In this document: in pieces, positions 5,263 through 28,224 of the stretch
Layout: each line of letters begins with the position of its first letter
How positions within the stretch are numbered: the stretch's first letter is position 1
DNA from: a virus
Strand: one strand, 5' to 3'
Virus record (IMG/VR): IMGVR_UViG_3300043331_001017
Span: 1 to 28,925 of that record
DNA: 28,925 nucleotides
Program-made: the position numbers and the translations under genes
Notes under the pieces: generated by a model
The model's input: only the letters and a program-made list of their open reading frames with translations
Database searches by the model: none
What the model was told of the DNA's origin: nothing

Positions 5263-6096
5263 TCAGGCGGCCCAACGGTCTCGGAGCCGCCGCGTTGCTT
5301 GGAGCGCCTCGGCGATCTTCTCGGCGAGGAGCACGGTTGCAGCACTGTCCGGGGTGGTGGCCGACGCGGGCTCCGGCCCCTGCTTGTCGGTGCGGGTGGT
5401 GCCCATCAGGGGGTCCGGCCCGCCGGCGGCGACCTCGATCTCCCGCAGGCGATCGACGAACGGCGCCAGGTCCTTGAGGGCGGCGGAGATCTCCCGCCGC
5501 TCGTAGTCGGTTAAGTGGTCGCGGCGCGCGAGCGCCTCGAGGCCGGCCTTCGCCGGCGCGAGAAGATCCGTCAGGGCGAAGTCGATCAGGGCGGCGTGCG
5601 ACGGCCGCCCCGACTTCTGGACGGCGAGGATGGCGGCGAGTTCCATCGCCGGGAAGTTGACCGGCCCCAACTCGAAGAGCTTCAACTCGGTGAGGAAGAG
5701 CGTCTCCTCGCCGCCCTCGCCGTCCTGCTCGCGGCGCCACTGGAGAATCCGGTACATGAACGAGGCGTGAGCGAGGGTGCCGCTTGCGACCTGTTCCAGC
5801 GTCTCATCGCCGGCGGCGGTGTTGTCGATCTTCGCGCGACAGAAGAGCCCGAACTCATCTTCGCGCAGCTCCTCGGGCATGCCCACCGGGTCATAGTGGT
5901 TTCGGAAAACCTTGATGAGCTTCCGCGGCCAACGCTCCCTGATCGACTTCGCGAAGGCGCCGCGCTCCACCACGTCGCCGTAGGTATCGCGTACCCCGAA
6001 GACGGAGCCGTAGAACTCGATCGTCCGCCCGGTCGAGTCTGCCTTGCAGCCCCGCGCGTCCTCGAGCGCCACGCTCTTGATCCGCATGCCTTCCAT
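5263..6096 (-). CDS. HK97 family prohead protease (peptidase S78)
   Basis: 277 residues from the ATG at 6096, which has GGGAG seven bases upstream. A GTG 21 bases further up is possible but has no such site. Family motifs are clear: IEFYGSVFGVRDTYGDVVER near the N-terminus, KVFRNHYDPVGMPEELRED carrying the likely catalytic His (about H67), and SGTLAHASFMYRI carrying the likely nucleophile Ser (about S112). These are the His and Ser of S78 prohead proteases, which cleave the capsid scaffold domain and then themselves during head maturation. The region after about residue 160 is a helical, charged tail, often used for incorporation into the prohead. The gene sits between portal and capsid as in HK97. 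Confidence 0.9.
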   Translation of the reverse strand: MEGMRIKSVALEDARGCKADSTGRTIEFYGSVFGVRDTYGDVVERGAFAKSIRERWPRKLIKVFRNHYDPVGMPEELREDEFGLFCRAKIDNTAAGDETLEQVASGTLAHASFMYRILQWRREQDGEGGEETLFLTELKLFELGPVNFPAMELAAILAVQKSGRPSHAALIDFALTDLLAPAKAGLEALARRDHLTDYERREISAALKDLAPFVDRLREIEVAAGGPDPLMGTTRTDKQGPEPASATTPDSAATVLLAEKIAEALQATRRLRDRWAA

Positions 6097-6129
6097 GGTC
6101 GGCTCCCGATTGTACACCAGTAGCGCCTA

Positions 6130-8433
6130 CTACGCCGCCGAGACCTCGATCTCGAAGTAGATCTCCCCGCACCGGCACTTCGGATGCGGGTCGCCGGGCC
6201 ACATGTACGAGGCGCCCGAAAGGGGCGAGACGTAGGGCTCGTCGAGCGCTGCTTCCTCGCCGTCGAGCTCTCCGCACTCAAGGCAGACTCGGCCATCGTC
6301 GGAGTCCACCCACCCCCGCCGGCCGGCGGTCAGAACTCCGCGGTGGAGCAGGTCGGCCGCCGCCTGCTGCTGGCCGCCGAAGACCGCCCGGGTCGCGTTC
6401 TGCTCGCCCAGGAGCAAGCCCCGGGCGGCGGCCGCCTTGCCGGCCAGCCGCTCGGCCCGCCGGATCGCCTCCTCGAGACCGCGCGCCTCGATCAGGCCGG
6501 CCAGCATGCCGGCCACCGCTGCAGCCTGCTCCCCGTTGACTGCGGCGAGGCCCGCGTAGAGGCCGGCGAGCGCCGCCGCCATCGCCTCGCCCCACCCGGG
6601 CAGAGACCGCCAGGCGACCGCGGTCTCGGTAAGTCCGCGCTCAGTCGAGCCGACCGCCTGCTCGGCGCGCTCGGGCGCCCACGACGCCGCCCACGTCGCG
6701 CCGACCACGGCCGGCACCGAGAGCTCGCGACCGGTCGCCTCAGAGAGCGCTGCCGCCCCAAGCCGGACGCCCTCCTCGGCTCCTCTCGTGACCAGGCCCA
6801 CAATCGGCACGAAGCCGGCACCGAGCGCCTCGAGCCCTTCCTCGGCGACGCCCAGCCCGGCGCGCAGCGTCGCCAGGCCGGCAGCGGAGAGGGCGGCGCC
6901 GGTGTCGCCCGACAGGAGCGCGCGCGCGATGCGCCCGAGACGGTCTTCGTCGGCGTCCCGGATGCGGGCGGCGATCACTCGGTAGCTCGCGGCGATGCGG
7001 TGCTCGAGGGTGGCGGCGGCGGCGAACTGGCGGGCGGCGCGCTCGCGGGCCTCGGCCTTCGAGACGGGCATCGGTAGCGCCTTGCGGGACGCGGCCGGGG
7101 CGAGCCGACCGCTGATCGGCCGAGCACTCGCCAGCCGTTCCGCGCCGAGCCCCAGCTCCGACCGCACCCGCTGGATCATCACCGCGACGTGGGTCCCGTG
7201 AGGTACGCCGCCGATCTCCTCGTCCAGTTGGGGCAGCGGTAGGCCGGTCAACTCGATGGCGTGGTTGTAGGGGGTCCCTGTGCCGACGAGCTGGGCGAAG
7301 GCTGTGACTCGCTTCAGGAGGAGATCGCGCAGGGCCTCGATCTGAGCTGCGTCCGGCCGCCAGCGGATCTCTCCTGGGCGACCAAAGTGGGGTCCGAGCT
7401 GCCGCGTGACCTTTCCGGCGACCGCCGCCAGCATCGGGAGGACGTTCTCTGTCCAGAGCGAGTTTCGGCTCTCCTCGAGGTTCGCGTATTTGGCCTCCGG
7501 CACGAGCAACGCCGGCCGGAGGTTCACGGCGCCGCAGATCTCCTCGAGGATCGCCCGCCGGGTGCCGAGGTAGTCGGCCTCAAGCGCGGTCATGCCGGCG
7601 CGCTCGAACTTCCAGCCCCCTTCTAGGAAGAGCGCCTCTCGCGCAGCCGACGGCCCCGACTTGCCCTCGATCGTGTCCTTGACCACGCGGCGCTGATCCT
7701 CGGTGAACACGCTCGGCGCTACGAACGCCCCATCCGGCACGAGCCGATTCTCGTAGCTCTCCTGCTGCCACTCGGCTGTGGCGATATCGGACGCGATCAC
7801 CCGCGCCGCGGCGCCGACCACGCCTGAGCCCCAACCGAGCCGCCGGGCGTTGACGCGCTGGAAGTGGATGACTTCCTCCGGCAGGTAGTCGCGGCCCGGC
7901 CCGCTGCTGTAGCCGGCCCCGAAGATCAAAGCCCGGCGGGTGTAACGAAGCGGGTAGTCATCCTCCCCGAGTTCCGCCTGGTAGACCGGGAGCAGAGGCC
8001 AGAGCTTGAGCACCGGCGGCAACTTCGCGGAGAACTGGCGCCCGACGCCGGTCACCTTGTGCCAGAGATGGTTTCCCGTGGGCACGAGGCAGAAGACCAG
8101 CCGCTCGAGGAGCGAGCGCCAGTCGTCGAAATCGTTGGGGGCGTCGAGCAGCGCGGCGGCCGGATGCTCGCTCGGCAGCGCCTCCCACCCATCACCGCTC
8201 CGGCGCTCCGCCACCCAGGGCGGGCTCGAGGCCGCGACCGCGATGATCCGCAGCGCGGCGTAGAGGATCGTCGACCCCTCCTGTGCGAGCTTGAGCTGCT
8301 GTTCCTCGGAGAGCTGATCCCAGGAGCCTGAGCGCCACCGGCCGGCGGCCCGGTGAATGCGCGGCGCGGTCTCGTAGGCGGCGGCCTTGCGGCGGAGCGC
8401 GGCGGCTTCCGCGAGCTTGGACGCCAGGCTCAC
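6130..8433 (-). CDS. Portal protein fused to a MuF-like (SPP1 gp7-type) C-terminal domain
   Basis: A 767-residue protein. Residues about 1-430 have HK97-type portal features: a helical N-terminus, HPAAALLDAPNDFDDWRSLL, the LLERLVFCLVPTGNHLWHKV strand-helix segment, DYLPEEVIHFQ, and the AILEEICGAVNLRPALLVPE segment followed by NLEESRNSLWTENVLP. These dodecameric portals form the DNA channel at the capsid vertex. After an alanine-rich helical stretch (about 470-700) the C-terminus has a MuF-type ending: WVDSDDGRVCLECGELDG, then GDPHPKCRC. Cys717, Cys720, His750, Cys753 and Cys755 could bind zinc. MuF/gp7 proteins are normally encoded by a separate gene after the portal; none is present here, which supports a true fusion. 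Tandem TAG codons end the frame. The ATG overlaps the upstream stop as ATGA. Confidence 0.88.
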   Translation of the reverse strand: MSLASKLAEAAALRRKAAAYETAPRIHRAAGRWRSGSWDQLSEEQQLKLAQEGSTILYAALRIIAVAASSPPWVAERRSGDGWEALPSEHPAAALLDAPNDFDDWRSLLERLVFCLVPTGNHLWHKVTGVGRQFSAKLPPVLKLWPLLPVYQAELGEDDYPLRYTRRALIFGAGYSSGPGRDYLPEEVIHFQRVNARRLGWGSGVVGAAARVIASDIATAEWQQESYENRLVPDGAFVAPSVFTEDQRRVVKDTIEGKSGPSAAREALFLEGGWKFERAGMTALEADYLGTRRAILEEICGAVNLRPALLVPEAKYANLEESRNSLWTENVLPMLAAVAGKVTRQLGPHFGRPGEIRWRPDAAQIEALRDLLLKRVTAFAQLVGTGTPYNHAIELTGLPLPQLDEEIGGVPHGTHVAVMIQRVRSELGLGAERLASARPISGRLAPAASRKALPMPVSKAEARERAARQFAAAATLEHRIAASYRVIAARIRDADEDRLGRIARALLSGDTGAALSAAGLATLRAGLGVAEEGLEALGAGFVPIVGLVTRGAEEGVRLGAAALSEATGRELSVPAVVGATWAASWAPERAEQAVGSTERGLTETAVAWRSLPGWGEAMAAALAGLYAGLAAVNGEQAAAVAGMLAGLIEARGLEEAIRRAERLAGKAAAARGLLLGEQNATRAVFGGQQQAAADLLHRGVLTAGRRGWVDSDDGRVCLECGELDGEEAALDEPYVSPLSGASYMWPGDPHPKCRCGEIYFEIEVSAA

Positions 8434-8684: not shown

Positions 8685-10313
8685 TTACCGGCGTCGTGTC
8701 GGCCATTTCGCCCGCCAGGCGTAGGCGCCGCCGCCGAGCACGTCCGGGTCGTGCAGGACGGCGTAGGCGTCCGCCGAGGCATCCGCCGTGTCGTCTCGGC
8801 CCCCCTCGCGGCCGGTGAAGTGGTGCAGCGCGTTGACGTACCTGCCCGCCCACGGCCCCGCCGCGACGTCGACGTTGCCGGGGATGAAGCCCTCTCTCTG
8901 GCCGGTCGTGCCGCTCAGCGCCCCCTCCCAGGCCGGCTGGGCGGCAGCGGCGAACGGCTTGAAGCGCTCGAGCTTGTCGCCCCCGTCGGAGCGGTAGGAA
9001 CGGAAGACGAGCTGCGGCGGGGGGACGCGTTCCTTCGCGCACGCTCCCCGGATCGCGTCGGCGTAGACCTGTGCCTGGTGCTTGCCGGCCTGGCCGGGGT
9101 CGATCCGGAGCGAAACGATTACGCCCGGACCGTCCGGCCCGCGGCCCTCGGTGCCGTAGAGGATAGTTCCGATGACGCGAGCGAGGACGCCGCCGGGCGC
9201 CTCCTGGAAGCGCTCCTCGTGGCGCACCACGATCCGGCCGCTCTCGCGGACCCGACCCATCAGCACGCCGGAAGTCTCGTCTCCGCCGCCCTCGGTGCCC
9301 GCCAGATCCCACGACCGCACCTGCATCGAGTAGACCGCATCGCCCGCCGGATGCCCAGTGTCGGCGAGCGGCGCGAGCGCGGGGTCGGTGATGATCGGGA
9401 ACCACCAGTCCTGCACTACGCCGCCGCCCTGGTCGCGCACCAGGAAGTTGCCGCCCTCGAGTCGCTGGCGGTCTGTCCAGTGGAGCAGGCGCAGGCGCGA
9501 ACGGTATAGGGGGTCGGCCTCGGTCAGCTTGGGGTTGTCCTCGAGCTTCGCCCCGATGAAGGTGACGCTGGTCGGATCGGTCGGCTCCGCCCGTGGGTGG
9601 CGCTCGCACAGCTCCTCGGGCGAGTCTGCCCAGTCCCAGGCGTCCTCGACGCGCAGGCACCAACGAATCACCCCGGCGCGCTCCGGGATCGGATAGCCGG
9701 TCTCGTGGTCCCACCACCAGCGCAGGAACTCGTTCACCCAGTAGCCGGGGTCGCCGAGCGGCGCCGGGTTGAACGTCGCGCGGGTCGCGCACGGATGTCC
9801 GGCCGCCGAGCGGTTGCGGCTCTGCATGAACCAGAACTGCGTCTCGGTCAGCTCCTCGACCTGATCGAAGAGGAGCAGTGGGATCTGCGAGCCCTGCCAG
9901 GAGAGCTTCGATTTCTCATGCTCGAGGTGACCGAACTGCACGACTGACCCGCCGGGGAACCGCCACTCCATTCGTGGGCTCTGGCGCGGCGATCCGCCGT
10001 AGTCTGGGTACAGCTTCATCGACTCGTCCCACAGGCCACCCTCGGAGGTGATGCGGGTCAGCTCGCGGCGGAAGATCACCGCCCCGAAGCGCGGCCGGCG
10101 AACGTGCTTGAGTGGCTCGGCGAGCAGCGCCCACGACTTGCCGCCGCCGGCGGCGCCGCCGTAGAAGACGATTTGCGCCTCGGAGTCGCGGAAGAGGGCC
10201 TGTGGGCCTGGATTGTAGAGCGGCAGGGACGGGGCGCCCGACCGGCGCCGGCGCAGCTCCAGGATCGCCGCGGCGCGCGTCTCGACCGCGACCTCAGCCC
10301 TTGCCGGCGGCAA
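8685..10313 (-). CDS. terL: Terminase large subunit (DNA packaging ATPase/nuclease)
   Basis: A 542-residue protein with the two domains of TerL. The ATPase domain has Walker A GGAAGGGKS (about 52-60), Walker B LLLFDQVEEL (about 146-155) and a coupling motif ATFNP (about 179-183). The nuclease domain has VRSWDLAGTEGGG (Asp336), RIDPGQAGK (Asp405) and GRDDTADASADAY (about 505-517). These three acidic sites match the metal-binding triad of the RNase H-like TerL nuclease. The protein pumps DNA into the prohead through the portal and cuts the concatemer. The start is uncertain: the first available start is a TTG at 10313, overlapping the small subunit gene by 20 bases with only a weak GAGG upstream. 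A closer ATG or GTG is not available before the conserved part. Confidence 0.93.
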   Translation of the reverse strand: MPPARAEVAVETRAAAILELRRRRSGAPSLPLYNPGPQALFRDSEAQIVFYGGAAGGGKSWALLAEPLKHVRRPRFGAVIFRRELTRITSEGGLWDESMKLYPDYGGSPRQSPRMEWRFPGGSVVQFGHLEHEKSKLSWQGSQIPLLLFDQVEELTETQFWFMQSRNRSAAGHPCATRATFNPAPLGDPGYWVNEFLRWWWDHETGYPIPERAGVIRWCLRVEDAWDWADSPEELCERHPRAEPTDPTSVTFIGAKLEDNPKLTEADPLYRSRLRLLHWTDRQRLEGGNFLVRDQGGGVVQDWWFPIITDPALAPLADTGHPAGDAVYSMQVRSWDLAGTEGGGDETSGVLMGRVRESGRIVVRHEERFQEAPGGVLARVIGTILYGTEGRGPDGPGVIVSLRIDPGQAGKHQAQVYADAIRGACAKERVPPPQLVFRSYRSDGGDKLERFKPFAAAAQPAWEGALSGTTGQREGFIPGNVDVAAGPWAGRYVNALHHFTGREGGRDDTADASADAYAVLHDPDVLGGGAYAWRAKWPTRRR

Positions 10314-10746
10314 GGTCCTCGAGCTCCTGGTCGGTCAGGCTGGAGAGGTCCTCGAGCTTCACCTGCCGGAGGTTCGTGTACCGGCCTCCGGCATCCTCGG
10401 CGCTCTCCCGGATCGCCTGTAGCTCGACGATCGGGTTGCCCGCTTCGGCCGCCTTCTCGGCGATCTCCTGTCGGCGGCGGAGACGGTAGACGAGGGACGC
10501 AATCGGGATCTCGTCGAGCGCCTTGTCGACCCGCTTCCGCTCGCGCCAGAAGATCTCGGCGTAGCGCTTCCCGAGCGCCTGTCCCGCGACCTTCGTCGGG
10601 TCGTAGTGCTCGACGTTCTGGACGGTGAAGCGGGGGGCCTTCGGGTAACGAGCGCGGAAGGCGTCCGTCGCCCGGCTCGGGCTCATGTAGCCGGCGAGCA
10701 GCTTGACCAGGTAGACCTTCTGCGGGTGGGAGAGCTTCTGCGGCAC
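10294..10746 (-). CDS. terS: Terminase small subunit (DUF2280-like)
   Basis: A 150-residue protein from a GTG. The sequence follows the DUF2280 pattern: an N-terminal helix-turn-helix region (KVYLVKLLAGYMSPSRATDAF), then the diagnostic VQNVEHYDPTKVAGQALGKR, an arginine-rich ERKRVDKALDEIPIASLVYR and RRRQEIAEKAAEAGNPIV. DUF2280 proteins are found beside large terminase genes and are regarded as small terminase subunits that recognise the packaging site. The gene directly precedes and overlaps terL, which supports the role. Upstream, 42 bases separate it from the next gene; this AT-richer stretch shows no convincing promoter. It is the first clearly packaging-related gene of the late operon. Confidence 0.82.
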   Translation of the reverse strand: MPQKLSHPQKVYLVKLLAGYMSPSRATDAFRARYPKAPRFTVQNVEHYDPTKVAGQALGKRYAEIFWRERKRVDKALDEIPIASLVYRLRRRQEIAEKAAEAGNPIVELQAIRESAEDAGGRYTNLRQVKLEDLSSLTDQELEDLAAGKG

Positions 10747-13556: not shown

Positions 13557-15083
13557 GTGAGTTGGACGGTGCTCTGTGCCGACGTGCTGGAGGGGCTGGC
13601 GGCGATCCGTCCGGGCTCTGCGCAGTGCGTCGTGACGAGCCCGCCGTACTACGGGCTGCGGTCCTACTCCGGTGTCCCGCCGCGGGCGTGGGGCGGTGAT
13701 CCCGAGCATGCGCACGAGTGGTCGGAGGTCGGCGTGCTCGACTCGCGCGGCCTCCAGATCGGCAGGGCGTCGAGCCCAGACGCGCGCGGCCAAGAGCGGG
13801 GCGCCTTCTGTCGCTGTGGCGCGTGGCTCGGCTGCCTCGGCCTGGAGCCGGCGCCTGATCTCTACCTCGCCCACCTGGTCGAGGTGTTCCGCGCGGTGCG
13901 GGGGGTGCTCCGGGATGACGGGGTGCTGTGGCTCAACATCGGGGACAGCTACGCGAACGATACGAAGTGGGGCGGCGCCACGGGCGGCAAACACGTCGAT
14001 GGGTTGCACGGCGGCGACTCGACCATCGGGCGCGGGCGCCGCGAGACTGGCCTCAAGCCCGGCGACCGCATCGGCATCCCGGAGCGCCTCGTGCTCGCCC
14101 TCCGAGACGATGGCTGGTACTGGCGGCAGACGGTGATCTGGTCGAAGGTGAACCCGTTGCCGGAGAGCGTGAGCGGGTGGCGGTGGGAGCGGTGCCGGGT
14201 GAAGGTTGGGGACGGCGAGCGATCCGCGACCCAGTGGGGTCAGGCCGCGGGCGAGCAGGCTGTCGGATTCCACGGTCACTGCGCGCCCTCTTGGGCGCCC
14301 TGCCCCGGCTGCCCGAAGTGCGAGCCTAACGGCGGCCTCGTGCTCCGCCGCGGCTCGTGGCGGCCGACCACGGCGCACGAGTACCTCTACATGCTCACCA
14401 AGAGCGCCGACTACTTCGGGGACGGGGACGGGGAAGCGGTCCGGGAGCCTCATGCAAGCGGCGAATGGTGGAATCGTCCGATGTACAACATCAAGGGCAA
14501 CGAAGACCGCGGCGACAAGGGGCAACCGCCGCACAGCGCCAACCCCTCCGGCCGCAACCCCCGTTCCGTCTGGGAGATCCCGAGCGAGCCCTTCCCGGAC
14601 GCCCACTTCGCCACCTTCCCGCGCCGCCTAGTCGAGCCCTGCATCCTGTCGAGCACGCCGGCAGCGGGGAGCTGCTCGGAGTGCGGGGCGCCGTGGGCGC
14701 CGATGGTCGAGGTCGAGGGGCGGCGCGGCTACGACTACAACCGCGCCAATCGTTCCGGCTGCGACCGTCTTGTGGCCGGCCGTAACGCCTCCGAGCATGC
14801 GCCGAGTATCACCCGCTCCACCCACCGCCCCACCTGCTCATGCTCCGCGCCCGCCCGCCCCGCTCTCGTGCTCGACCCGTTCGCTGGCAGCGGGACGGTC
14901 GGCCTGGTCTCCTTGCAGCACGGTCGCCGCTTCCTCGGCATCGAACGCTCGCCCGCCTACTGCGCGATGGCCCGGTCACGGATGGGCTCGGTTCACCAGC
15001 CCACCGCAACCCGCCGGCATCGCGCCATCTTGCAGAAGCCGCCGCAGATGCCCGAGATCACCGGCCCGCTGTTCGACCGCTAG
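13557..15083 (+). CDS. Site-specific DNA methyltransferase (SPPY type, N4-cytosine or N6-adenine)
   Basis: A 508-residue protein starting GTG with GGAGGAG upstream. Motif IV, TSPPYYG, is at residues 27-33 and motif I, the S-adenosylmethionine site DPFAGSGT, is at 440-447. This is the beta-class order. The PFAM family N6_N4_Mtase includes such enzymes. SPPY is more often found in N4-cytosine enzymes, though adenine is not excluded. A long central region holds the target recognition part and paired cysteines (Cys85/87/93, Cys242/249/252/255, Cys373/376, Cys427/429) that could bind zinc. No partner endonuclease is next to it. It probably modifies phage DNA to block host restriction, or marks replication or transcription sites. 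Confidence 0.88.
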   Translation: MSWTVLCADVLEGLAAIRPGSAQCVVTSPPYYGLRSYSGVPPRAWGGDPEHAHEWSEVGVLDSRGLQIGRASSPDARGQERGAFCRCGAWLGCLGLEPAPDLYLAHLVEVFRAVRGVLRDDGVLWLNIGDSYANDTKWGGATGGKHVDGLHGGDSTIGRGRRETGLKPGDRIGIPERLVLALRDDGWYWRQTVIWSKVNPLPESVSGWRWERCRVKVGDGERSATQWGQAAGEQAVGFHGHCAPSWAPCPGCPKCEPNGGLVLRRGSWRPTTAHEYLYMLTKSADYFGDGDGEAVREPHASGEWWNRPMYNIKGNEDRGDKGQPPHSANPSGRNPRSVWEIPSEPFPDAHFATFPRRLVEPCILSSTPAAGSCSECGAPWAPMVEVEGRRGYDYNRANRSGCDRLVAGRNASEHAPSITRSTHRPTCSCSAPARPALVLDPFAGSGTVGLVSLQHGRRFLGIERSPAYCAMARSRMGSVHQPTATRRHRAILQKPPQMPEITGPLFDR

Positions 15084-15392: not shown

Positions 15393-15569
15393 CGCCCGAA
15401 GCTGCGCCGGGCGGTGTAGGGCTGCGATTCTGTCGAGGACGTGGCGGGCGGGGAGGGGCGGAGACGGCTGCTTTGCCCGGCGCCGCCCGTGCTCGTAGAT
15501 CTGCAAGCGCCCCCGTTCCGGCCCGGCGGCCAGGCGGTCGAGATCGGAGAGGAGATCCGCCGGCCTCAC
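15357..15569 (-). CDS. Small basic hypothetical protein downstream of the metallopeptidase
   Basis: A 70-residue frame from a GTG overlapping the metallopeptidase stop as GTGA. It begins MRPADLLSDLDRLAAGPERG with an amphipathic helix, then a basic middle (YEHGRRRAKQPSPP) and another helix (ARHVLDRIAALHRPAQL). It ends in a Pro/Gly/Arg tail. Coupling to the upstream gene and helix-like composition support it as real. It overlaps the end of the plus-strand gene by 36 bases, so the two operons converge here without an obvious terminator. Confidence 0.5.
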   Translation of the reverse strand: MRPADLLSDLDRLAAGPERGRLQIYEHGRRRAKQPSPPLPARHVLDRIAALHRPAQLRALTPGRPGARGP

Positions 15570-16393
15570 GCCACCGCTCGCAGACAGGTACCGCAGATGG
15601 CCGCGACGCGGGCGGCGCCGACCTCGGGCGGGCGACCGGCCGCCGCGACCAGCTCGGCCGTGGCGCCCGCCCCCGCGCCAGCGCCGTAGCGCCGTACCAC
15701 GCCGACGAACTCCTCGACGTCGTGACCGCGGATCGCGTAGACCGGCCGGCCCGTCCGCCGGTTGAACTTCGGCCCGCCGAAGCGGTCGCGCGACTGCGCC
15801 GCGTGGTAGAGCTCGTGCTCGACCAGGGCGCACCAGTCTGCGTCCTCGGCCTCCGTCGCGTAGGGTGCCGAGAAGGTGAGCATGAAGTCCGGTAGGGTCT
15901 CCCCGAACCAGGCATGGAGCTGCGCGAGCTGCCGGGCCTTCACCCAGGGCATGCCCCGCGGAGTCGCGGTCTCGCAGGTGCCGACGATCTCGCGCATCTG
16001 ACGCTTGGCCCGGGCGTTCGTCCAGAGGGCGCCGAGACGGGCCGGCTCGAGGTGGTCGTGGTCGGGGTTGCGGAGCGTCGCTCCCTCGCCGATGAAGCAG
16101 GCGCGCGCCCAGGCGATCACCTCCGGGGCGGGGACGAAGAGCGGGGGCTCGTGGTGGTAGGGGTGGCGGGTCAGCTCGGCCGGGGGTTGCGGTCGCCCAC
16201 CCTTGCGCGCGGCAGCCAGCGCTGCCGCGATGCGCTGGCGCTCCTCCGCTTCGCTCGCCTGTCGGCGCTCCGTCTCGGCGTCGATCGACGGCAGCAGTTC
16301 GCGGGTCAGGAGCCGGAGCACGCTCCGCGGCTGACCGCCGGCGAGCGCCGCCCGCACCTTGGCCGCAGCAGTCTCGATCCGCTCCAGGCTCAC
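15566..16393 (-). CDS. Putative phage zinc metallopeptidase (HELYH)
   Basis: A 275-residue protein from a GTG overlapping the XRE gene stop. The catalytic zinc motif is VEHELYHAAQ (HExxH, His193-Glu194-His197), followed by GPKFNRRTGRPVYAIRGHDV and EEFVGVVRRYG, where His224 or a Glu at 227/228 could be the third zinc ligand. This whole block is characteristic of the putative phage metallopeptidase family. The N-terminal 70 residues are a helical, charged arm. No membrane or signal sequence is seen, so it acts in the cytoplasm. Translational coupling to a small helix-turn-helix gene resembles regulator-protease pairs (ImmR-ImmA); a substrate is not known. A host-directed protease or a virion factor is also possible. 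Confidence 0.8.
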   Translation of the reverse strand: MSLERIETAAAKVRAALAGGQPRSVLRLLTRELLPSIDAETERRQASEAEERQRIAAALAAARKGGRPQPPAELTRHPYHHEPPLFVPAPEVIAWARACFIGEGATLRNPDHDHLEPARLGALWTNARAKRQMREIVGTCETATPRGMPWVKARQLAQLHAWFGETLPDFMLTFSAPYATEAEDADWCALVEHELYHAAQSRDRFGGPKFNRRTGRPVYAIRGHDVEEFVGVVRRYGAGAGAGATAELVAAAGRPPEVGAARVAAICGTCLRAVA

Positions 16394-16590
16394 CGGCCGA
16401 TCATCTCCCGGATCAGGCGCTCAACCGCGGCCGAGGGCTGGCGAAGCCCGCTCTCGTAGCGGCTGACTGCTGCCTGGGAGACGCCGAGGCGTGCGGCGAC
16501 GACCTCCTGGTCGACGTCGTGTATCGCGCGCCAGGCGGCGAGCTGGCGGCCAATCGGCGCCTCGGCCAGCGCGGCGCTCAGACCGCGCAC
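16390..16590 (-). CDS. Short XRE-type helix-turn-helix protein coupled to the metallopeptidase
   Basis: A 66-residue protein. Residues 14-64 give a complete XRE fold: IGRQLAAWRAIHDVDQEVV, AARLGVSQAAVSRYESGLRQ and SAAVERLIREMIG. The GTG at 16590 is chosen because GGGAG stands six bases ahead; it overlaps the DUF5131 gene by 13 bases. Its own TGA overlaps the metallopeptidase GTG as GTGA. There is no dimerisation or cleavage domain, so it is either a minimal repressor or an adaptor for the peptidase. Longer in-frame extensions have the composition of a frame shadow of the upstream gene. Confidence 0.78.
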   Translation of the reverse strand: MRGLSAALAEAPIGRQLAAWRAIHDVDQEVVAARLGVSQAAVSRYESGLRQPSAAVERLIREMIGR

Positions 16591-17372
16591 AGGAGGCTCC
16601 CTTGGCGAGCGCCGACCGCGCGGCGGGGCACCGGATACTCGCGCACGATCTCGCCGTCGAGCTCGATCCCGAGTTCCGTCCGCCAGCCAGCGGACTGCTT
16701 GTGGAAGAACGCGGTGCCCTCGGCGGCGCACCGCGCGCGGATCGCTCGCGCCCACGCCTTAGGGTCCTCGGCCGTGCCCTCCGGCCGGTGGCCGGGGCCG
16801 CTCTCGCCGCCGTAGATCAGCCAGTGGATGCCGGTCAAGTTGATCGTCTCGAGCGGCCCGATGGCCGGCTCGTAGCTGATGAACCGCACGTGCGCCGTGA
16901 CGGCGCGCAGCGCGTCCGCGCGCTCGGCGACGCGCATGTCCTCGATCGACGTGCCGAGCCACACGTGGCACCAGCCGGCTCCCCAGTCCGACGGGAGCAT
17001 GCCGGCGATGTTCTCGGGGCGCTTGGTCAGGATCTGGTAGTCGAGTGCGTCGTGCTCCCGAATCCAGTCCCACAGCCGCGGCCGAGTCGCGTTGGCGACC
17101 GGGTGATCCTCGAACACGTCGAGGAGCGAGCCGGTGAACACCCGCAGCGACTCGCCGGCGGCGCGCGCCTCGGCGTCCCACCCGCGGACCTTGTTCCAGG
17201 TCGCCAGGGAGGTCACCTGCCGGGCACCGCGCGGCCCCCACAGGGACAGCCCCATGCGGTTCTTGGTCAGCGTCTCGGCGTAGCAGTGCTTGCAGCCCTG
17301 GGAGACCTTCGTGCAGCCCATCCAGGGGTTAAAGGTCCGATCGGTCCAGGCGATGATCGTCTGGTCGGCCAT
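16578..17372 (-). CDS. DUF5131 / phage Gp37-Gp68 family protein (radical SAM-like)
   Basis: A 264-residue protein starting MADQTIIAWTDRTFNPWMGC; the ATG overlaps the upstream TGA as TGATG. Family signatures include the N-terminal WTD.T.NPW.GCTKVS.GC..CYAE segment with Cys20, Cys27 and Cys30, then FTGSLLDVFED, LTKRPENIAGMLP, WLGTSIED and ISYEPAIGPL. The cysteines are spaced C-x6-C-x2-C, which in this family may hold an iron-sulfur cluster similar to radical SAM enzymes such as spore photoproduct lyase. No substrate is established. It is common in phages of high-GC bacteria. The C-terminal part contains GESGPGHRPEGTAEDPKAWA, also conserved in the family. It heads a coupled group with the XRE protein and the metallopeptidase. 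Confidence 0.85.
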   Translation of the reverse strand: MADQTIIAWTDRTFNPWMGCTKVSQGCKHCYAETLTKNRMGLSLWGPRGARQVTSLATWNKVRGWDAEARAAGESLRVFTGSLLDVFEDHPVANATRPRLWDWIREHDALDYQILTKRPENIAGMLPSDWGAGWCHVWLGTSIEDMRVAERADALRAVTAHVRFISYEPAIGPLETINLTGIHWLIYGGESGPGHRPEGTAEDPKAWARAIRARCAAEGTAFFHKQSAGWRTELGIELDGEIVREYPVPRRAVGARQGSLLCAV

Positions 17373-17776
17373 CAGGCAGCCCCTTCCAGTCGGTGCGCGA
17401 GCCGCGCGCGCAACTCCCGCGGCACACCATGCGGTCGAACGATCAGGCGCGGAGTGTTCACGTCGTGCGCGGCGCGCCGCGCCCAGGCTTGCCAAGACGG
17501 ATCCAGTTTGCGCCAAGCGGGCGGCCGGTAGGGCGGGACAGCGCGCCGGCCGCGGGCGGCGACCGGGATGCGCTCGTTGATCCGCGCCACCATGCCGCGG
17601 CGGAACTGCGCCAGAACCTCGGCGGCGGTCCGCGAACCGAGCCCGTCGAGCCCCTGTGTGTACTCGAAATCAGGCTCGGCCGCGGCGCGCGCGCGGACCT
17701 CGCGCCAGGCGCGCACATAGCCACCCAGGGACACTCGGCGGCCATTACCAAGCGTAATGCAGCGGGTGCTTGCCAT
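17372..17776 (-). CDS. Basic hypothetical protein, coupled to the DUF5131 gene
   Basis: A 134-residue protein. The ATG at 17776 is preferred because GGAGGAG lies just upstream; a longer frame begins inside the hairpin loop at 17793-17809 and is unlikely. It starts MASTRCITLGNGRRVSLGGY, followed by an Arg-rich helix (VRAWREVRARAAAEPDFEY), a Gly/Leu segment and a basic C-terminus (PHGVPRELRARLAHRLEG). Charge suggests nucleic-acid binding. No family is recognised. Its TGA overlaps the ATG of the DUF5131 gene, so both are translated together. Confidence 0.68.
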   Translation of the reverse strand: MASTRCITLGNGRRVSLGGYVRAWREVRARAAAEPDFEYTQGLDGLGSRTAAEVLAQFRRGMVARINERIPVAARGRRAVPPYRPPAWRKLDPSWQAWARRAAHDVNTPRLIVRPHGVPRELRARLAHRLEGAA

Positions 17777-18140: not shown

Positions 18141-18539
18141 CTATCCACGTAGCGCCGCAGCGTAGCTGCCCCGGCGCGCGATCAGCTCTTTCGCCTCGTC
18201 CAGCGGCACGGCCCGGCGGCGCACCAGCGTCACGTGCGCCAGGATCTCCGCCGGCTCGATGCCGTGGTTCAGGTAGCCGGCCACGGCGCGCGCGAACTCG
18301 GCGAGCGTCCGGTTGCCCCGGCTGCTGTTGCACCGCCGGCAGGCGGTCAGCAGGTTCTCACTCGCGTTCTTCCCGCCGCGACTGTGCGGCTTCGCGTGGT
18401 CCAGCGTCAGCTCGGCGCCATCCTCCACGCCCTCGCCGCACCAGCAGCACGCCAGCCCGTCGCGCAGGTAGATCGCCAGCCGGCGCTCCTGCCGGATCCA
18501 CTTCCCGCCCTGGGCTGCCGGGTGCCGCGTCCCTGTCAT
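18141..18539 (-). CDS. HNH endonuclease, probably leaderless
   Basis: A 132-residue protein with classical HNH features: RRLAIYLRDGLACCWCG (Cys31 or Cys32, Cys34), the AELTLDHAKPHSRGGKN segment (Asp47-His48 as the metal-activating pair), Asn62 in ENLLTACRRCNSSRG, and Cys67-x2-Cys70. Such enzymes make a nick or double-strand cut using one metal ion. Of two nearby in-frame ATGs, the one at 18539 fits the predicted transcript start 6-7 bases after TACAGT; the other (18545) touches the -10 box. It could be a homing-type nuclease or part of a phage exclusion function. It directly follows the ParB-methyltransferase-HNH gene, with its promoter inside that gene's end. Confidence 0.87.
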   Translation of the reverse strand: MTGTRHPAAQGGKWIRQERRLAIYLRDGLACCWCGEGVEDGAELTLDHAKPHSRGGKNASENLLTACRRCNSSRGNRTLAEFARAVAGYLNHGIEPAEILAHVTLVRRRAVPLDEAKELIARRGSYAAALRG

Positions 18540-18545
18540 GGTCAT

Positions 18546-18574
18546 ACTGTATACCAAGCCGGCCCGGGTGTCAA
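18546..18574 (-). promoter_or_regulatory. Promoter for the HNH gene, leaderless
   Basis: TTGACA (18569-18574, minus strand) and TACAGT (18546-18551) are 17 bases apart. The -35 box overlaps the stop codon of the upstream gene. Six bases separate the -10 box from the ATG at 18539, which gives a message starting at or next to its start codon. The -35 context (CTTGACACC) matches other promoters in this window. Confidence 0.72.
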
Positions 18575-20121
18575 GCCGTGGCGACTCGTAACTCACTGTA
18601 GCAGCGTGACTTACGGTCTGAAAAAATCGTGGGGCGCCGGGGACGGCCGAAGGCTTGGTCGCGGTACGTGCGCCGGTCGTGGTGAGGCTTGCAGAGCGGG
18701 CGGAGGTTGGCCTGGTCGTTGTTCCAAGGGTCGCCGTCGATGTGGTCGACCTCCGTGGCCGGGGTCTCGCGCCCCTCCTCGGCGCACAACCGGCAGAGCG
18801 GCTCCTTGGCGAGGACCGCCGCGCGCCGGCGCCGGTGCTGATGGCCGTACCCCCGCATGGCCGCGCTCGGCCGTGACGCGCTGCCGCCCTTGGCTTGCTT
18901 ACCGCCCTCGCCCGCCAGCTCCGCTCCGCCCCCGGAGTCCAGACGGAACGTTCGCCGGCTCTCGCCCCGCTCCAAGACCGCCGGCCGGCCGACCACCTTG
19001 CACCACCGGCGCCCGATCAGCTCGGCCCACTTCGGCAGCAGCTCGGCACCTCGCCACAGGCGGCCGTGCTGCTCGGCGGCGATCAGCGCGGAGCCCGAGC
19101 CCGCGCACGGGTCCCAGACGGCCGAGCCCGCCGGCACGCAGGACAGGCCGACTGCCATCGAGAGCAGTCCCTTCCCGTGGCCCATCTCGGAGCGCACGAG
19201 GCCGGACGCTTGGACGCTGTGAGGCCGTCCATCCTCCGAGACCTTGGCCCCGGCCGCGAGGAGCAGGGCGGTATCAAAGCCGCACGCCTTGCCGCGCCGC
19301 CAGACGGTGCAGAGATCATGGACGCAACAGGCGACGTGCTTTATCCGGTTGCCGATGCCGCGCGCTTGGCCGGTAAAGACCACCTCGTCATAGCTAGACC
19401 AGCCTGGCACGAGACCGGCCTCGAATGGTAGGCGTCGCGCTCCCCTCCCCCACACCATCAACACCCGCGCCGACTCCGGCACCGACCAAGCCGAGTAGTC
19501 GAGGTCGAACGGCGGGTCGAAGATCATCAGTAGCGGCTCGCCAGCCAGCGCGAGCCCTGCCTCCCCCGTCGAGTCCGCACAGTAGAGCCGGTGCTCCCCG
19601 CGCTCGCCGCTGAACACCAGCACGTCACCGGGCTCGACGACCCGGGCCTCCTCCGGCTCCTCCTCGCCCTCTTCTTCGTCCTCGCCGGCCGCCGCCTTCG
19701 CATGCGCCTTGACCGCCGCGTCGAACTCCTTCAGTTCCTCGGCGGTCAGGCCCCACTCGCCGAGTTGCTCGCCCTCGAACTCCTCGGCCATCCGCTCGTA
19801 GTCCCAATCCCCGCCCCGGGCGTTCAGCCGGATGTTCAGCTCCCGCTCGCGCGTCTCGTCGAGGTCGACCTCGATCACACCGGCGGTCACCTCCCCGCGC
19901 TCCAGGAGCAGCGCCCACCGCTGGAACCCGCCGACGATGTTCCCCCGCCGCCCCTCGTGGGTGTTCACCACGATCGGCTCGACCAGGCCGAAACGCGAGA
20001 GCGACGCGGCGAGGTTCTTGCGCGCCGCGTCGTCGATCCGCCGCGGGTTGTAGTCGAGCGGCCGGAGGTCGGCGAGCTTCCAGGAGACGAGCCGGGGCTG
20101 GCCCGGTCGGCGGCGCGTCAC
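18571..20121 (-). CDS. ParB-like domain fused to a DNA methyltransferase and an HNH nuclease
   Basis: A 516-residue protein from a GTG overlapping the previous TGA as GTGA, with GGGAGAGG ahead. Residues about 12-105 match the ParB/sulfiredoxin-like domain (WKLADLRPLDYNPRRID, RFGLVEPIVVNTH, VGGFQRWALLL). An acidic linker (about 146-160) precedes a methyltransferase domain with motif IV DPPF (202-205) and motif I DPCAGSGS (337-344). ParB-methyltransferase fusions are common in phages and usually modify adenine. The C-terminus (about 437-490) adds an HNH domain: Cys443-x2-Cys446, ATEVDHIDGDPWNNDQANL and Cys477-x2-HH. The order of modification and nuclease in one chain is uncommon. Asp459-His460 and Asn468 supply HNH active-site candidates, so the domain looks intact. 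Confidence 0.9.
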   Translation of the reverse strand: MTRRRPGQPRLVSWKLADLRPLDYNPRRIDDAARKNLAASLSRFGLVEPIVVNTHEGRRGNIVGGFQRWALLLERGEVTAGVIEVDLDETRERELNIRLNARGGDWDYERMAEEFEGEQLGEWGLTAEELKEFDAAVKAHAKAAAGEDEEEGEEEPEEARVVEPGDVLVFSGERGEHRLYCADSTGEAGLALAGEPLLMIFDPPFDLDYSAWSVPESARVLMVWGRGARRLPFEAGLVPGWSSYDEVVFTGQARGIGNRIKHVACCVHDLCTVWRRGKACGFDTALLLAAGAKVSEDGRPHSVQASGLVRSEMGHGKGLLSMAVGLSCVPAGSAVWDPCAGSGSALIAAEQHGRLWRGAELLPKWAELIGRRWCKVVGRPAVLERGESRRTFRLDSGGGAELAGEGGKQAKGGSASRPSAAMRGYGHQHRRRRAAVLAKEPLCRLCAEEGRETPATEVDHIDGDPWNNDQANLRPLCKPHHDRRTYRDQAFGRPRRPTIFSDRKSRCYSELRVATA

Positions 20122-20315
20122 CGCCTCTCCCTCTCCCGCCGCCGCCTCACCGCTGCCGCGTAGGCCGGGCACCGCTCATAGGCTACGTCCGCCATCCGGT
20201 TTGCCGGCTGCTGCTCGCTCCGCCGCCAATGCCAGCCTCCGGCGCCGTAGGTGAGCGGCGGGGTGAGCCCGGCGCACGAGCAGGCCGAGGAGCGCTCCAG
20301 CAGGTCGCTGTTCAT
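20118..20315 (-). CDS. Small cysteine-containing protein in the replication operon
   Basis: A 65-residue protein. Its ATG overlaps the stop of the DnaC-like gene as ATGA and its TGA overlaps the next gene's GTG as GTGA. It has CSC near the start (Cys12, Cys14) and ERCPAY later (Cys49), with Trp/His-rich GGWHWRR between. It ends with a basic run (VRRRRERERR). It may bind zinc or nucleic acid and is co-translated with the helicase loader. No family is recognised. A much longer in-frame extension upstream is a frame shadow of the loader gene and is not adopted. Confidence 0.65.
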   Translation of the reverse strand: MNSDLLERSSACSCAGLTPPLTYGAGGWHWRRSEQQPANRMADVAYERCPAYAAAVRRRRERERR

Positions 20316-20956
20316 CCGCCACCGCCCCGCCGGTCCTCGCCGAGCGCGCCGGGCACCCGCACCACCCGCCGCTCGATCGCCTCGAGGCGGCGGTCCGGCC
20401 CCTCGCACTCGATCACCAGCCCCGACAGCAGGCGCGAGCCGAGGCGCGGCTCCGACTTGTAGAGGTCCTCGGCGGTCTGGTTCGTGGTGAAGATCGTCGG
20501 CCGAGCCTGCGCGTACCGCTCGATCACCACGCGCGCCGTCACGTCGGCCGTCCAGTCCGTCCGCCGCTCCGCGCCCCATTCGTCGATCACCGCGAGCCGA
20601 GAGAGCCGGAGCTTGCGCAGCAGCGACTCGTCCCCGCCGTCCTCGATCAGGTCGCGCATGCGCTCGATCACCAGCGGGAGCACGAAGAGGCGGGGCAGGA
20701 GGTCGATCGGCGACGGCGCGTCGAGCGGCCGGTAACTGCCCTGCTCGGACGGCTCCTCGACCAGCCACGAGTCCGCCGCCCGGCGCAGCGTGGCGACGGC
20801 AAGGTGCGTCTTGCCGTTGCCGGGCTCGCCGCAGATCGCGACGAAGGGCGGCGAGCCCTCCCAGGCCGCCAGCGCGGCCGGGAACGCGCCCTCCCAGGTG
20901 TTCACCCTCATGCGCTCGTACTCGGCGGGGAGCCGCAGCACGGAAGCCCACGTCAC
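20312..20956 (-). CDS. DnaC-like helicase loader ATPase
   Basis: A 214-residue AAA+ protein from a GTG overlapping the upstream stop. Walker A is ICGEPGNGKTHLAVATLRR (GKT at 48-50), Walker B is LAVIDEWGAER (Asp125, Glu126), sensor I is FTTNQT (about 156-161) and the SRL box (RLGSRLLSG, about 171-179) supplies the arginine finger region. These features identify DnaC/IstB-type loaders. In phage replication such proteins place the host DnaB helicase on the origin, together with an initiator, as lambda P does. It lies just after the probable initiator gene. No phage helicase is present in this window, which agrees with use of the host enzyme. Its N-terminus is short, so partner contacts may be distinct. 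Confidence 0.9.
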   Translation of the reverse strand: MTWASVLRLPAEYERMRVNTWEGAFPAALAAWEGSPPFVAICGEPGNGKTHLAVATLRRAADSWLVEEPSEQGSYRPLDAPSPIDLLPRLFVLPLVIERMRDLIEDGGDESLLRKLRLSRLAVIDEWGAERRTDWTADVTARVVIERYAQARPTIFTTNQTAEDLYKSEPRLGSRLLSGLVIECEGPDRRLEAIERRVVRVPGALGEDRRGGGG

Positions 20957-24317: not shown

Positions 24318-24779
24318 TTACTGCGAGCGCAGCCGTTCGCGGCGTCGCTCGGATATTAGGGCTTTCTGAATCGTTCTTTTGTGGACGCCAAAGTAGGCGG
24401 CCAGCTCGCGCAGCGTGGACCCGCCGCGGCGTTTCGCGAGGACAAGGGCGTTGCGCGCGTTCTTGCGCGACGGCATGCGGTCGCGCTTGATCGTGTCCGC
24501 CCGGTTGTCGGCGTCGGTGCCTAGGCGCAGGTGCAGCGGGTTACAACAGGGCGGGTTGTCGCATGAGTGCAGGACGTGGAGTCCTTGCGGTATCGGCTCG
24601 CCGATCATCAACTCGTAGGTGACCCGGTGAGCGCGGCACCGCTTGCCCGCGATCCGAAAGAGCCCGTAGCCGGCGCGAGTACGATGGCGGCCGGTCCATA
24701 AGTGGCAGGCGTTAGGTCCGCTGGAGCGGTCCACCTTGCGCGCCAAGACATCTCGCGGGTTGTTCGTTCTCGGGTCCAT
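24318..24779 (-). CDS. HNH homing-type endonuclease with C-terminal helix-turn-helix
   Basis: A 153-residue protein; ATG at 24779 follows AAAAGGA. The core matches HNH_3-type homing nucleases: CHLWTG, AGYGLFRIAGKRCRAHRVTY, then IPQGLHVLHSCDNPPCCNPL and HLRLGTDADNRAD. These include the Cys/His ligands and the conserved Asn (Cys73, Cys78, Asn80, His83). Residues about 120-145 (GSTLRELAAYFGVHKRTIQK) form a helix-turn-helix, likely a DNA-binding module that gives site choice. Free-standing homing nucleases of this type spread between phage genomes. A longer in-frame start (24824) lacks a ribosome site. Confidence 0.88.
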   Translation of the reverse strand: MDPRTNNPRDVLARKVDRSSGPNACHLWTGRHRTRAGYGLFRIAGKRCRAHRVTYELMIGEPIPQGLHVLHSCDNPPCCNPLHLRLGTDADNRADTIKRDRMPSRKNARNALVLAKRRGGSTLRELAAYFGVHKRTIQKALISERRRERLRSQ

Positions 24780-24815
24780 TCTCAAGTCCTTTTCCGTCCC
24801 TGCCGTCCGGCGAGC

Positions 24816-24839
24816 GGCCGACAAGGGCTGAGGTCGGCC
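24816..24839 (-). terminator. Stem-loop at the end of the XRE/winged-helix gene
   Basis: GGCCGAC (24833-24839, minus) and GTCGGCC (24816-24822) pair perfectly over seven bases with a ten-base loop. The stem starts at the stop codon of the regulator gene. There is no U-run, so complete termination is unlikely; it could be an RNA end-protecting hairpin. Confidence 0.4.
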
Positions 24840-25870: not shown

Positions 25871-26698
25871 TCAATCTTCCTCCTCCACCTCCCACAGCGC
25901 CCGCTCCCAGCTCCCCGCCGCCGGCCGGTCGCTGCCCTCGGCCCGCTCTCGCCCGCCCTCTCGCGCGAGCGCGGCCTTCCGGCGCACGTCCGCGCGGTCG
26001 AGCATCTCCTGGAGCTGCTTCTTCGTCCGCTGGTCGCTCGTCTGCGCGAGCAGGAAGCGGAGGTTGGCGACGCCGAGCGTCTCCTTCACCCCCTCCTGGC
26101 TCCCGAGCTTGTCGGGCCACTCGACCTCCCACAGCGCCTCGAACGCAGCCCGGCCGGCCGCCTCGACTTCCTGCTCGCTCGGCTCGACCAGCCCCGCGCG
26201 CAGCTCGGCCTCGGCGTGGCGCGCGAGCGCCGAACGGCAGGCGCCGGCCTTGAGCCCTGACGCCGAGACGAAGCTCGCCGCGAACTGCTCGAGCGCCCCG
26301 AACAGCATCGCCGCGGCGTCGACGTCGCCGGCGGTTGCCCGGCCGACCGGCTCGGCCAGCTCCGCCCGGGCGAGCGCCCCGAACGCCTTCGGCAGGTCGC
26401 GCACCTTCTCGCGCTTTACCCGCTCCCCGTAGAAGCGGAACTCCCCGACCACGACGTCCCGGTGCCCGTGCTTGTTCGAGCGGAACCAGGCGAGCACCCG
26501 CTGATCCGCCGCCGCGGCGAGGTCGCGGGCGAGGGCGGATAGCTCGCGCGCTCGCAGGATCAGCTCGGCGGCATCATCGTGGGCGCCGTCGGCGAGGTCG
26601 AGGGCCTCGACCAGGATGGTGAAGCGCAGGTGCAGGAGGGCGAGAGCTTCGCCAACCGACTTGCCGAGCGCCTCAAGAGCAGGGCGGCCGGCGGTCAC
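25871..26698 (-). CDS. Hypothetical helical protein downstream of the ERF gene
   Basis: A 275-residue protein from a GTG overlapping the ERF gene TGA as GTGA. It is helical (LGKSVGEALALLHLRFTILV, AAELILRARELSALARDLA) with a KHGHRDVVVGEFRFYGERVK strand segment and FEALWEVEWPDKLGSQEGVK. It ends in a short acidic Trp tip (ALWEVEEED). Phage annealing proteins are commonly paired with an exonuclease or accessory protein; the catalytic motifs of lambda exonuclease/YqaJ or RecE are not seen here. Its role is therefore an open question, with recombination accessory as the leading guess from position. Confidence 0.7.
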   Translation of the reverse strand: MTAGRPALEALGKSVGEALALLHLRFTILVEALDLADGAHDDAAELILRARELSALARDLAAAADQRVLAWFRSNKHGHRDVVVGEFRFYGERVKREKVRDLPKAFGALARAELAEPVGRATAGDVDAAAMLFGALEQFAASFVSASGLKAGACRSALARHAEAELRAGLVEPSEQEVEAAGRAAFEALWEVEWPDKLGSQEGVKETLGVANLRFLLAQTSDQRTKKQLQEMLDRADVRRKAALAREGGRERAEGSDRPAAGSWERALWEVEEED

Positions 26699-28224
26699 GA
26701 GGCGCCGCCTTCCTCGGCGATCCCGTGCCGCCGCACGGCCGCCTCGACCAGGGCGATCGCCGCCGCCTTGGAGAGCTTCTCGCCGGCCGCCGGCAAATCC
26801 TCTTCGGGGATGGAGCCCTGCGCGACCATGGCGCGCACGAGCTGCCCGAGCATCTTGGCATCCATCGCGCGCCACCCCGCCGGCATCTTGCCGCGGTCGC
26901 CGGCGTGGCCGTTGGTCGCCGGAGGCGCCGCGGGCTCGGAGGTTGCCGTCGGCGCCGCCGGGAACGCCGCGAGCACCGCGGAGACCGCCGGGGCGAGGAC
27001 CAGCGGCAGATCCGCGAGCGTCTCCAGCTCCAGCGCCGCCACGACCGCCGCCTCAGCCTCCGCGCTCGTGCGGCCCCCGTTGTCGCCCTTCCGGTAGATC
27101 GCCATCTTGGCGGCGCCGCCCTCCGTGCCGGTGAGGCCCTGGCGGATTGCCTCCGGGTAGTGCTCGGCGAGCCGGTCGCGAACATCGCGCAGCACGGCCC
27201 ACGCCGCCGCTTCGTCCTCGCCCGGGAAGTCCTCGTGCGCTCCTGAGAGGCGGTCGAGAATGTCGGCGATGTGAGGGATCGCCAGCCCATCGGCCCCTTG
27301 GGCAGGCTCGCTCTCGGCCGTGGCCGCTGGCCCCGGCGTCGCCACCGGCTCGTCCGCTCCCTCCGACGCGTCCTTGGCGCGGTCGTACTCGGCGAGGATC
27401 TCGGCCTCGGGGAAGCGCTTCAAGGCGCGCGCGACCCACGTCTGCCCGAACGGCCGCTTGCGGGCGTCCACCCGCGGCAGGTCCTCGAGCATGCAGCTCA
27501 GCTCCGTGCCGACCGCCCGCTCGACGCCGACGATCGACCAGCCGGACCGCTTGACGATCTCCGGCAACAGCAGCCGGGTGGCGTAGTCGTGGCCGATGGG
27601 CTCGGATTCGGAGCGCTTCAACTCGGCGCGGATCGCATCCCACACCGCTGGCCAGGGCGGCGGCTCCTGGTTCTCGTCCTCGGCGCTGGGCTCGATCGGC
27701 GGCGCCGGCTCGGCGCGCTGCGGTTGTGCCCGGTGCGCGCGGCCGACGGCATGATCCCGCCGGTCCTGCCAGCGCTGCGCGGACTGCTGCGCCCGCTGGC
27801 CGTCGTCGTCGTCGGCCGGGGCGAGGTTGAGGAGAGCCAGGTAGGCGTACCGGCGTGCGTAGGTGATCGCCGAACCCACCGACTGCGGCTCCGGGCCGCA
27901 CGGCAGCCGGAGCCGCCGAGAGATCCACTCCCCCGACTCGTGGAGCAGGATCGTCTCGACCGCGACCCCGCCGGACTCGTGGGAGTCGGGGAGCTGCATC
28001 ACGATCAGGCCGTGCTCCGCGAGCGCCGGCGCGGTCGCCCCGATCGCCGCATCAAGCGAGGCGTAGCGCCAGCGCTTACCGCCCTCCTTGCCGGCCGTCT
28101 GCTCCTTCTCGATGCGCTCGAACTTCGCCCGCGCCGCCGCGAGCGCCTTCACCAGGTTCCCGAGTTGCGGGCTCTGCCCGCCCGCCGCCACCGGCCCGCC
28201 GCCACTTCCGTTCTCTGTCGCCAT
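26695..28224 (-). CDS. erf: ERF-family single-strand annealing protein
   Basis: A 509-residue protein with GGGGAGG nine bases before the ATG. The N-terminal domain (about 20-145) is ERF: RYASLDAAIGATAPALAEHG, the VAVETILLHESGEWI segment and GSAITYARRYAYLALLNLAP followed by ADDDDG. ERF proteins anneal complementary single strands in phage recombination and genome circularisation. After a long charged linker, two further helical segments (about 190-290 and 320-509) are not part of the minimal domain; the protein is about twice as long as typical ERF proteins. The linkers are rich in Pro/Ala/Glu. The gene heads the early right-hand operon and is driven by the promoter at 28342-28371. Confidence 0.87.
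   Translation of the reverse strand: MATENGSGGGPVAAGGQSPQLGNLVKALAAARAKFERIEKEQTAGKEGGKRWRYASLDAAIGATAPALAEHGLIVMQLPDSHESGGVAVETILLHESGEWISRRLRLPCGPEPQSVGSAITYARRYAYLALLNLAPADDDDGQRAQQSAQRWQDRRDHAVGRAHRAQPQRAEPAPPIEPSAEDENQEPPPWPAVWDAIRAELKRSESEPIGHDYATRLLLPEIVKRSGWSIVGVERAVGTELSCMLEDLPRVDARKRPFGQTWVARALKRFPEAEILAEYDRAKDASEGADEPVATPGPAATAESEPAQGADGLAIPHIADILDRLSGAHEDFPGEDEAAAWAVLRDVRDRLAEHYPEAIRQGLTGTEGGAAKMAIYRKGDNGGRTSAEAEAAVVAALELETLADLPLVLAPAVSAVLAAFPAAPTATSEPAAPPATNGHAGDRGKMPAGWRAMDAKMLGQLVRAMVAQGSIPEEDLPAAGEKLSKAAAIALVEAAVRRHGIAEEGGAS

Follow-up and report, generated by a model that had tools for sequence, protein, structure and literature searches.

A single gene from an uncultured phage that joins a ParB-like domain, a DNA methyltransferase (MTase) and an HNH nuclease raises the questions of whether the three truly share one reading frame, how rare such a union is and what it might do for the phage. 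We analysed this gene in the whole of its IMG/VR virus record, a linear fragment of 28,925 bases with a GC content of about 72%, which we call the window. Judged by codon-position GC, its real genes are mostly encoded on the minus strand. The phage origin proposed by the first-pass annotation, which was made from the sequence alone, is borne out by genes for portal, TerL, capsid, protease and ERF. Together with DUF2280 and a DnaC-like loader, these identify the source as a tailed phage:

3664-5244, within the mostly-minus-strand gene set: capsid
5263-6117, within the mostly-minus-strand gene set: protease
6130-8433, within the mostly-minus-strand gene set: portal
8685-10313, minus: TerL (Terminase_6, phrog_979)
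10294-10746, minus: DUF2280, probably TerS, forming a packaging module with TerL (8685..10746)
20312-20956, within the mostly-minus-strand gene set: DnaC-like loader
26695-28224: ERF

No sibling phages of the window were found in searches by the DnaC-like protein, by TerL or by DNA similarity. The packaging module lies about 8 kb from the fusion gene, and a related DUF2280-TerL module in a Rhizobium phage has no adjoining HNH gene.

One reading frame with three domains

The fusion gene and its parts are placed as follows, together with the gene directly downstream:

18571..20121, minus: fusion gene, ParB - beta-class DNA MTase - HNH, 516 aa (open reading frame and codon-position signal)
19687..20094, minus: ParB/CTPase-fold N-terminal domain, aa 10-145 (Pfam ParB_N, phrog_498, Foldseek 6sdk)
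18940..19644, minus: beta-class DNA adenine-type MTase domain, aa 160-394, of a divergent DPPF subfamily (with the viral contigs L002 and L060)
19507..19518, minus: MTase motif IV, DPPF, aa 202-205
19090..19113, minus: MTase motif I, DPCAGSGS, aa 337-344
18862..18939, minus: low-complexity Gly/Ala/Lys linker without Cys, aa 395-420
18655..18861, minus: HNH nuclease domain, aa 421-489, with C443, C446, D459-H460, N472, C477, H480 and H481
18141..18545, minus: separate gene for a further HNH protein, from a different subfamily (Pfam HNH_5 1.6e-11, HNH 1.8e-10), starting at ATG 18545 or 18539

The frame at 18571-20121 opens with GTG and runs for 516 codons without an internal stop, and a purine-rich, Shine-Dalgarno-like run (GGGAGAGGGAGAGG) lies upstream of the GTG at 20121. 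Its codon-position GC of about 0.74/0.53/0.88 agrees with the pattern of the other genes of the window and marks the same frame in the ParB part, the linker and the HNH part. The contrast between codon positions at the MTase/HNH junction is weakest in the low-complexity linker, yet the same pattern is kept there. Inspection of this junction on the contig revealed no stop, no frameshift and no Shine-Dalgarno-like sequence or internal ribosome-binding site. An in-frame ATG is present at aa 422, and one free-standing HNH relative (L003) starts at a comparable place. The three domains are thus confirmed to lie in one uninterrupted reading frame.

Structure models were made for two parts separately with AlphaFold and compared using Foldseek. 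These comparisons and the sequence profiles uphold the order ParB, methyltransferase, HNH that had been read from the translation, and they establish the three folds. The N-terminus matches Pfam ParB_N at 2.3e-5, slightly below the curated cut-off, and the model of the ParB part matches ParB-CDP (6sdk) at 8.9e-8. The arginine of its P-motif GGFQR (R68) is kept in all aligned relatives. The protein also matches phrog_498, named 'DNA methyltransferase' and corresponding to the ParB-MTase family, at 5.7e-48.

Both motifs that had been taken as signs of an adenine-type MTase, DPPF and DPCAGSGS, are located in the second part, and their order, with motif IV before motif I, is that of the beta class. 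Pfam MTase models do not match this part because the domain is divergent, and the region with DPCAGSGS is matched by PHROG and PADLOC MTase models. Foldseek pairs the MTase model with M.BceJIV, TTHA0409, MboIIA and M1.HpyAVI, and the middle region of the domain is modelled poorly. The two nearest relatives are encoded on L002 (45% identity over aa 161-399) and L060 (34% over aa 10-384), and both proteins end where the HNH starts in the fusion. By sequence, the MTase belongs with them to a small divergent subfamily. A search for the pattern VLMVWGRG returned the L002 contig, already known, and two unrelated matches. Searches of cellular genome contigs for the closest subfamily, using narrow patterns, gave no confirmed relative.

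ParB-methyltransferase fusions were stated beforehand to be known, and they are indeed common in phages (phrog_498). Examples are BCE_0392 of a Bacillus cereus ATCC 10987 prophage and proteins of Streptococcus Javan, NatCom gut and Parageobacillus phages. The fusion shares with them a ParB fold followed by a beta-class MTase in one chain, the P-motif arginine, motifs IV and I, and the phage setting. It differs in motif IV, which is mostly DPPY in these proteins and DPPF here, and in a shortened region after that motif. The 89 best-matched ParB/MTase frames span 379-504 aa and end after the MTase, whereas the fusion has an added HNH. This addition makes the protein a variant of the phrog_498 ParB-MTases with the core features kept.

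The HNH part matches phrog_2323 at 2.1e-21 and Pfam HNH_3 at 1.8e-5. It is modelled at a pLDDT of 92-97, with the GVE2 HNH endonuclease (5h0m) as its best Foldseek match (1.4e-4). The nuclease had been described as apparently intact, with zinc cysteines and a DH pair. The catalytic residues H460, N472 and H481, invariant in 34 of 34 compared relatives, are established as intact, as is the D459-H460 pair. All four zinc ligands are also present (C443, C446, C477 and H480), but the fourth is a histidine and not a cysteine. As 5 of the 34 relatives share this Cys-to-His change, it does not by itself imply that function has been lost. Two other positions, almost invariant among the relatives, are changed in the fusion (W429H and H440E). 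The linker stands where most free-standing relatives have a zinc ribbon: an N-terminal CxxC..CxxH ribbon is present in 117 of 142 of them and absent here. The closest HNH relatives (L114-L116 and L003) also lack the ribbon, and its loss therefore need not stem from the fusion.

These relatives place the domain in the terminase/cos-associated HNH family and not among the homing type. TerL lies within 2.5 kb of the HNH gene in 48 of the 71 nearest relatives where this could be tested. In phi105 the HNH gene adjoins the annotated cos (cohesive) end, and in phiKM1 and Psp6 the gene order is HNH-TerS-TerL. The HNH of GVE2 nicks DNA and needs for this the H/N/H residues that the fusion also carries (PMC5304195), cleavage at cos is stimulated by HK97 gp74 (PMC11331095), and the characterised free-standing members nick one strand with a specificity of 3-5 bp (PMC5304195, PMC8845596). 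Compared with the terminase/cos nickases as a set (HK97 gp74, GVE2 HNHE 5h0m, phi105, phage Gamma HNH; phrog_2323/589/144), the domain of the fusion has the same beta-beta-alpha metal fold, H/N/H residues and four-ligand zinc site, and is 35-62% identical to free-standing members. Those are separate proteins encoded beside TerS/TerL and in many cases bear a zinc ribbon at the N-terminus, whereas the domain here forms the tail of a longer chain, lacks the ribbon, is encoded 8 kb from TerL and has histidine as the fourth zinc ligand.

A rare joining of familiar neighbours

The HNH tail had been singled out as the unusual part, and the surveys agree. None of 94 other ParB/MTase frames (from 80 viral loci and other fetched records) is fused to an HNH, and the 80 nearest HNH relatives include no fusion with a ParB-MTase. 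A search for homologues with the same domain order in phage and plasmid collections, a weaker test, returned no record in which a single match covered 80% of the query; in these samples the HNH is not a routine tail of such proteins. The ParB-MTase survey is limited to the 80 best among at least 326 relatives and the HNH survey to the 80 best among at least 545, and cellular genomes were searched by narrow patterns only, so further fused cases may exist. A DNA pattern combining MTase motif I and the HNH at the spacing of the fusion gave 16 matches, all due to chance.

As separate genes, the two parts often occur together. An HNH gene of the same family as that of the fusion lies near the ParB-MTase, within the few kb fetched and mostly upstream, in 51 of 80 loci. 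In four annotated records (L007, L008, L013 and L016) the HNH gene is followed by a small gene or TerS and then by the ParB-MTase. One of these, the phage-plasmid of Corynebacterium atypicum (L013), has HNH, TerS, a SAM synthetase (metK), ParB-MTase and a cytosine MTase in succession; a SAM synthetase is also found near the ParB-MTase of Streptococcus phage Javan181 (L015). With neighbours in many loci and no other fused case, the fusion represents a rare joining of two familiar neighbours. Its rarity is established in these samples; it is possibly unique, and it is not an established system. The component parts are ordinary, and their union in one chain is unusual.

A PNAS 2025 survey of proteins in which a ParB fold is joined to other domains lists, in its main text, fusions with an MTase in phages and with an HNH in bacteria; a search of passages of that text turned up no triple ParB-MTase-HNH case (PMC12704722). 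The bacterial ParB-HNH fusions and the GmrSD-type ParB-HNH enzymes resemble the present protein in having a ParB fold and an HNH in one chain, and differ in that the main texts describing them mention no intervening MTase (PMC5512222, PMC12704722).

What the fused protein may do

We tentatively favour, as the best explanation of the whole, a ParB-MTase whose methylation would mark phage DNA and which would serve as the anchor for a tethered HNH nickase acting on it. The gene would be expressed as a single protein whose ParB-MTase part methylates phage DNA, of the adenine type by its motifs, mainly as protection against host restriction. The ParB fold would probably bind NTP and hold DNA. The C-terminal HNH would serve as a nicking module of the terminase/cos family that lacks the usual ribbon and stand-alone position, with the flexible linker tethering it to the MTase and the MTase providing the anchoring. 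Nicks would then fall close to MTase-bound sites, with phage DNA that is being replicated or processed from concatemers as the most likely target, and the methylation state might determine where.

Several lines of evidence lead us to prefer this explanation. Besides the domain and motif matches, the ending of the L002 and L060 proteins where the HNH starts, the frequent neighbourhood of the two genes, the known roles and gene context of terminase/cos HNH proteins and the missing ribbon, they include the B. cereus prophage ParB-MTase BCE_0392, which produces m6A in vivo in E. coli (PMC3459991) and has a reported nicking-associated activity, with a suggested role in phage replication or packaging (PMC3459991, PMC5512222). 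Another is an engineered precedent, in which a 76-aa phage HNH nicking domain was joined to a DNA-binding BamHI mutant and efficient nicking was confined to the vicinity of the anchor site (PMC8845596). This construct, BamHI*-gammaHNH, likewise carries a small phage HNH nicking domain at the C-terminus of a site-binding enzyme (PMC8845596). It is man-made and its anchor is an inactivated restriction enzyme, whereas the fusion is natural, has a ParB fold and includes an MTase that appears active from its sequence. Since TerL/DUF2280 lies 8 kb away and the Rhizobium phage module has no HNH, we infer a role in packaging only from the HNH family, and the strict version of that role is weakened. 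Several observations speak against the anchored nickase: the fusion is known from a single metagenomic contig, with no second fused case, it carries W429H and H440E, and the MTase mid-region is poorly modelled.

It is doubtful that methylation and nicking are coupled at the same site, with the ParB-MTase reading and writing the mark and directing the HNH nick, such that methylation state would set the nick position for the phage's own concatemers or against unmarked DNA. If this were true, the protein would be a naturally occurring equivalent of the engineered nickase with its BamHI anchor. ParB-MTases and cos-type HNH proteins stand side by side in many phages without a known functional link, and the fusion suggests that the two may share both a DNA substrate and the step at which they act. 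It offers a direct handle on whether phage methylation governs a cutting step, and a natural anchored nickase would be of interest to enzyme engineers.

Nearly as likely as a tethered nickase is an uncoupled or accidental fusion, neutral or almost so, in which an ordinary anti-restriction MTase carries an HNH tail that acts as if alone or not at all. The frequency with which the two genes are neighbours (51/80 loci) would make accidental joining easy. There is a single case, the linker is of low complexity, and W429H and H440E alter otherwise nearly invariant positions. Against decay, every catalytic and metal residue of the HNH is retained and the codon-position signal persists throughout the domain.

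The self-contained restriction-modification role suggested by the first-pass annotation is possible, though we think it unlikely. The MTase would shield the phage's own sites while the HNH cut unmethylated DNA, whether from the host or from competing phages, in the manner of type IIG enzymes, which also have nuclease and MTase on one polypeptide. Type IIG enzymes usually combine a PD-(D/E)XK nuclease, a specificity domain and a gamma-class MTase. The presence of another MTase gene (13557-15083) and of two more HNH genes indicates that this phage invests in enzymes of these kinds. But the characterised relatives of the HNH nick one strand at sites of 3-5 bp (PMC5304195, PMC8845596). Among the relatives of either half that we met, none is known to restrict, and their known roles are phage DNA methylation and cos nicking or packaging. 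PADLOC gives MTase_II models only, and none of its models for a restriction system spans the protein.

An error of assembly or sequencing, or a very recent stop loss, with MTase and HNH (from the ATG at aa 422) being truly two genes, is quite improbable: the single contig and the ATG, matched by the start of L003, would fit it, but the junction is clean, the codon-position signal is unbroken and the linker looks like a typical tether. The other role first suggested, a homing element that protects its own site, would have a selfish HNH endonuclease carried on and protected by the MTase gene; HNH domains are common among homing enzymes and one HNH gene of the window (24318-24824) weakly matches a homing-endonuclease model, but this idea is very improbable because the HNH follows the natural C-terminus of the MTase (as marked by L002 and L060) instead of interrupting a gene, and it is of the terminase-associated family.

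Several other genes of the window deserve mention. The second DNA MTase lies on the opposite strand (13557-15083, plus; N6_N4_Mtase 3.2e-28, phrog_67), has a CcrM-like C-terminus and contains an unusually long stretch separating its matched parts. The HNH genes at 18141-18545 and 24318-24824 (both minus) are of different families; the one at 24318-24824 matches the endonuclease family phrog_1872, and its match to the homing-endonuclease model comes from PADLOC.

Radical-SAM-like genes lie near the few relatives of the divergent MTase subfamily. In the window, a DUF5131 gene lies downstream of the fusion (16578-17516, minus). In L060, DUF5131 (4130-4900) overlaps the end of the MTase, and in L002 a Radical_SAM protein (8919-9839) is encoded about 2 kb downstream of it. 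The other ParB-MTase loci searched had no DUF5131 nearby, and the adjacency of DUF5131 and a methyltransferase in Gordonia phages was dropped as a link, the methyltransferase there being unrelated to that of the fusion. The gene at 15566-16393 (minus) is named 'transposase' by PHROG (phrog_513) and PhageMetallopep by Pfam (1e-31), and the PHROG name looks wrong; in the Gordonia phages L201 and L202, a metalloprotease gene is likewise close to DUF5131.
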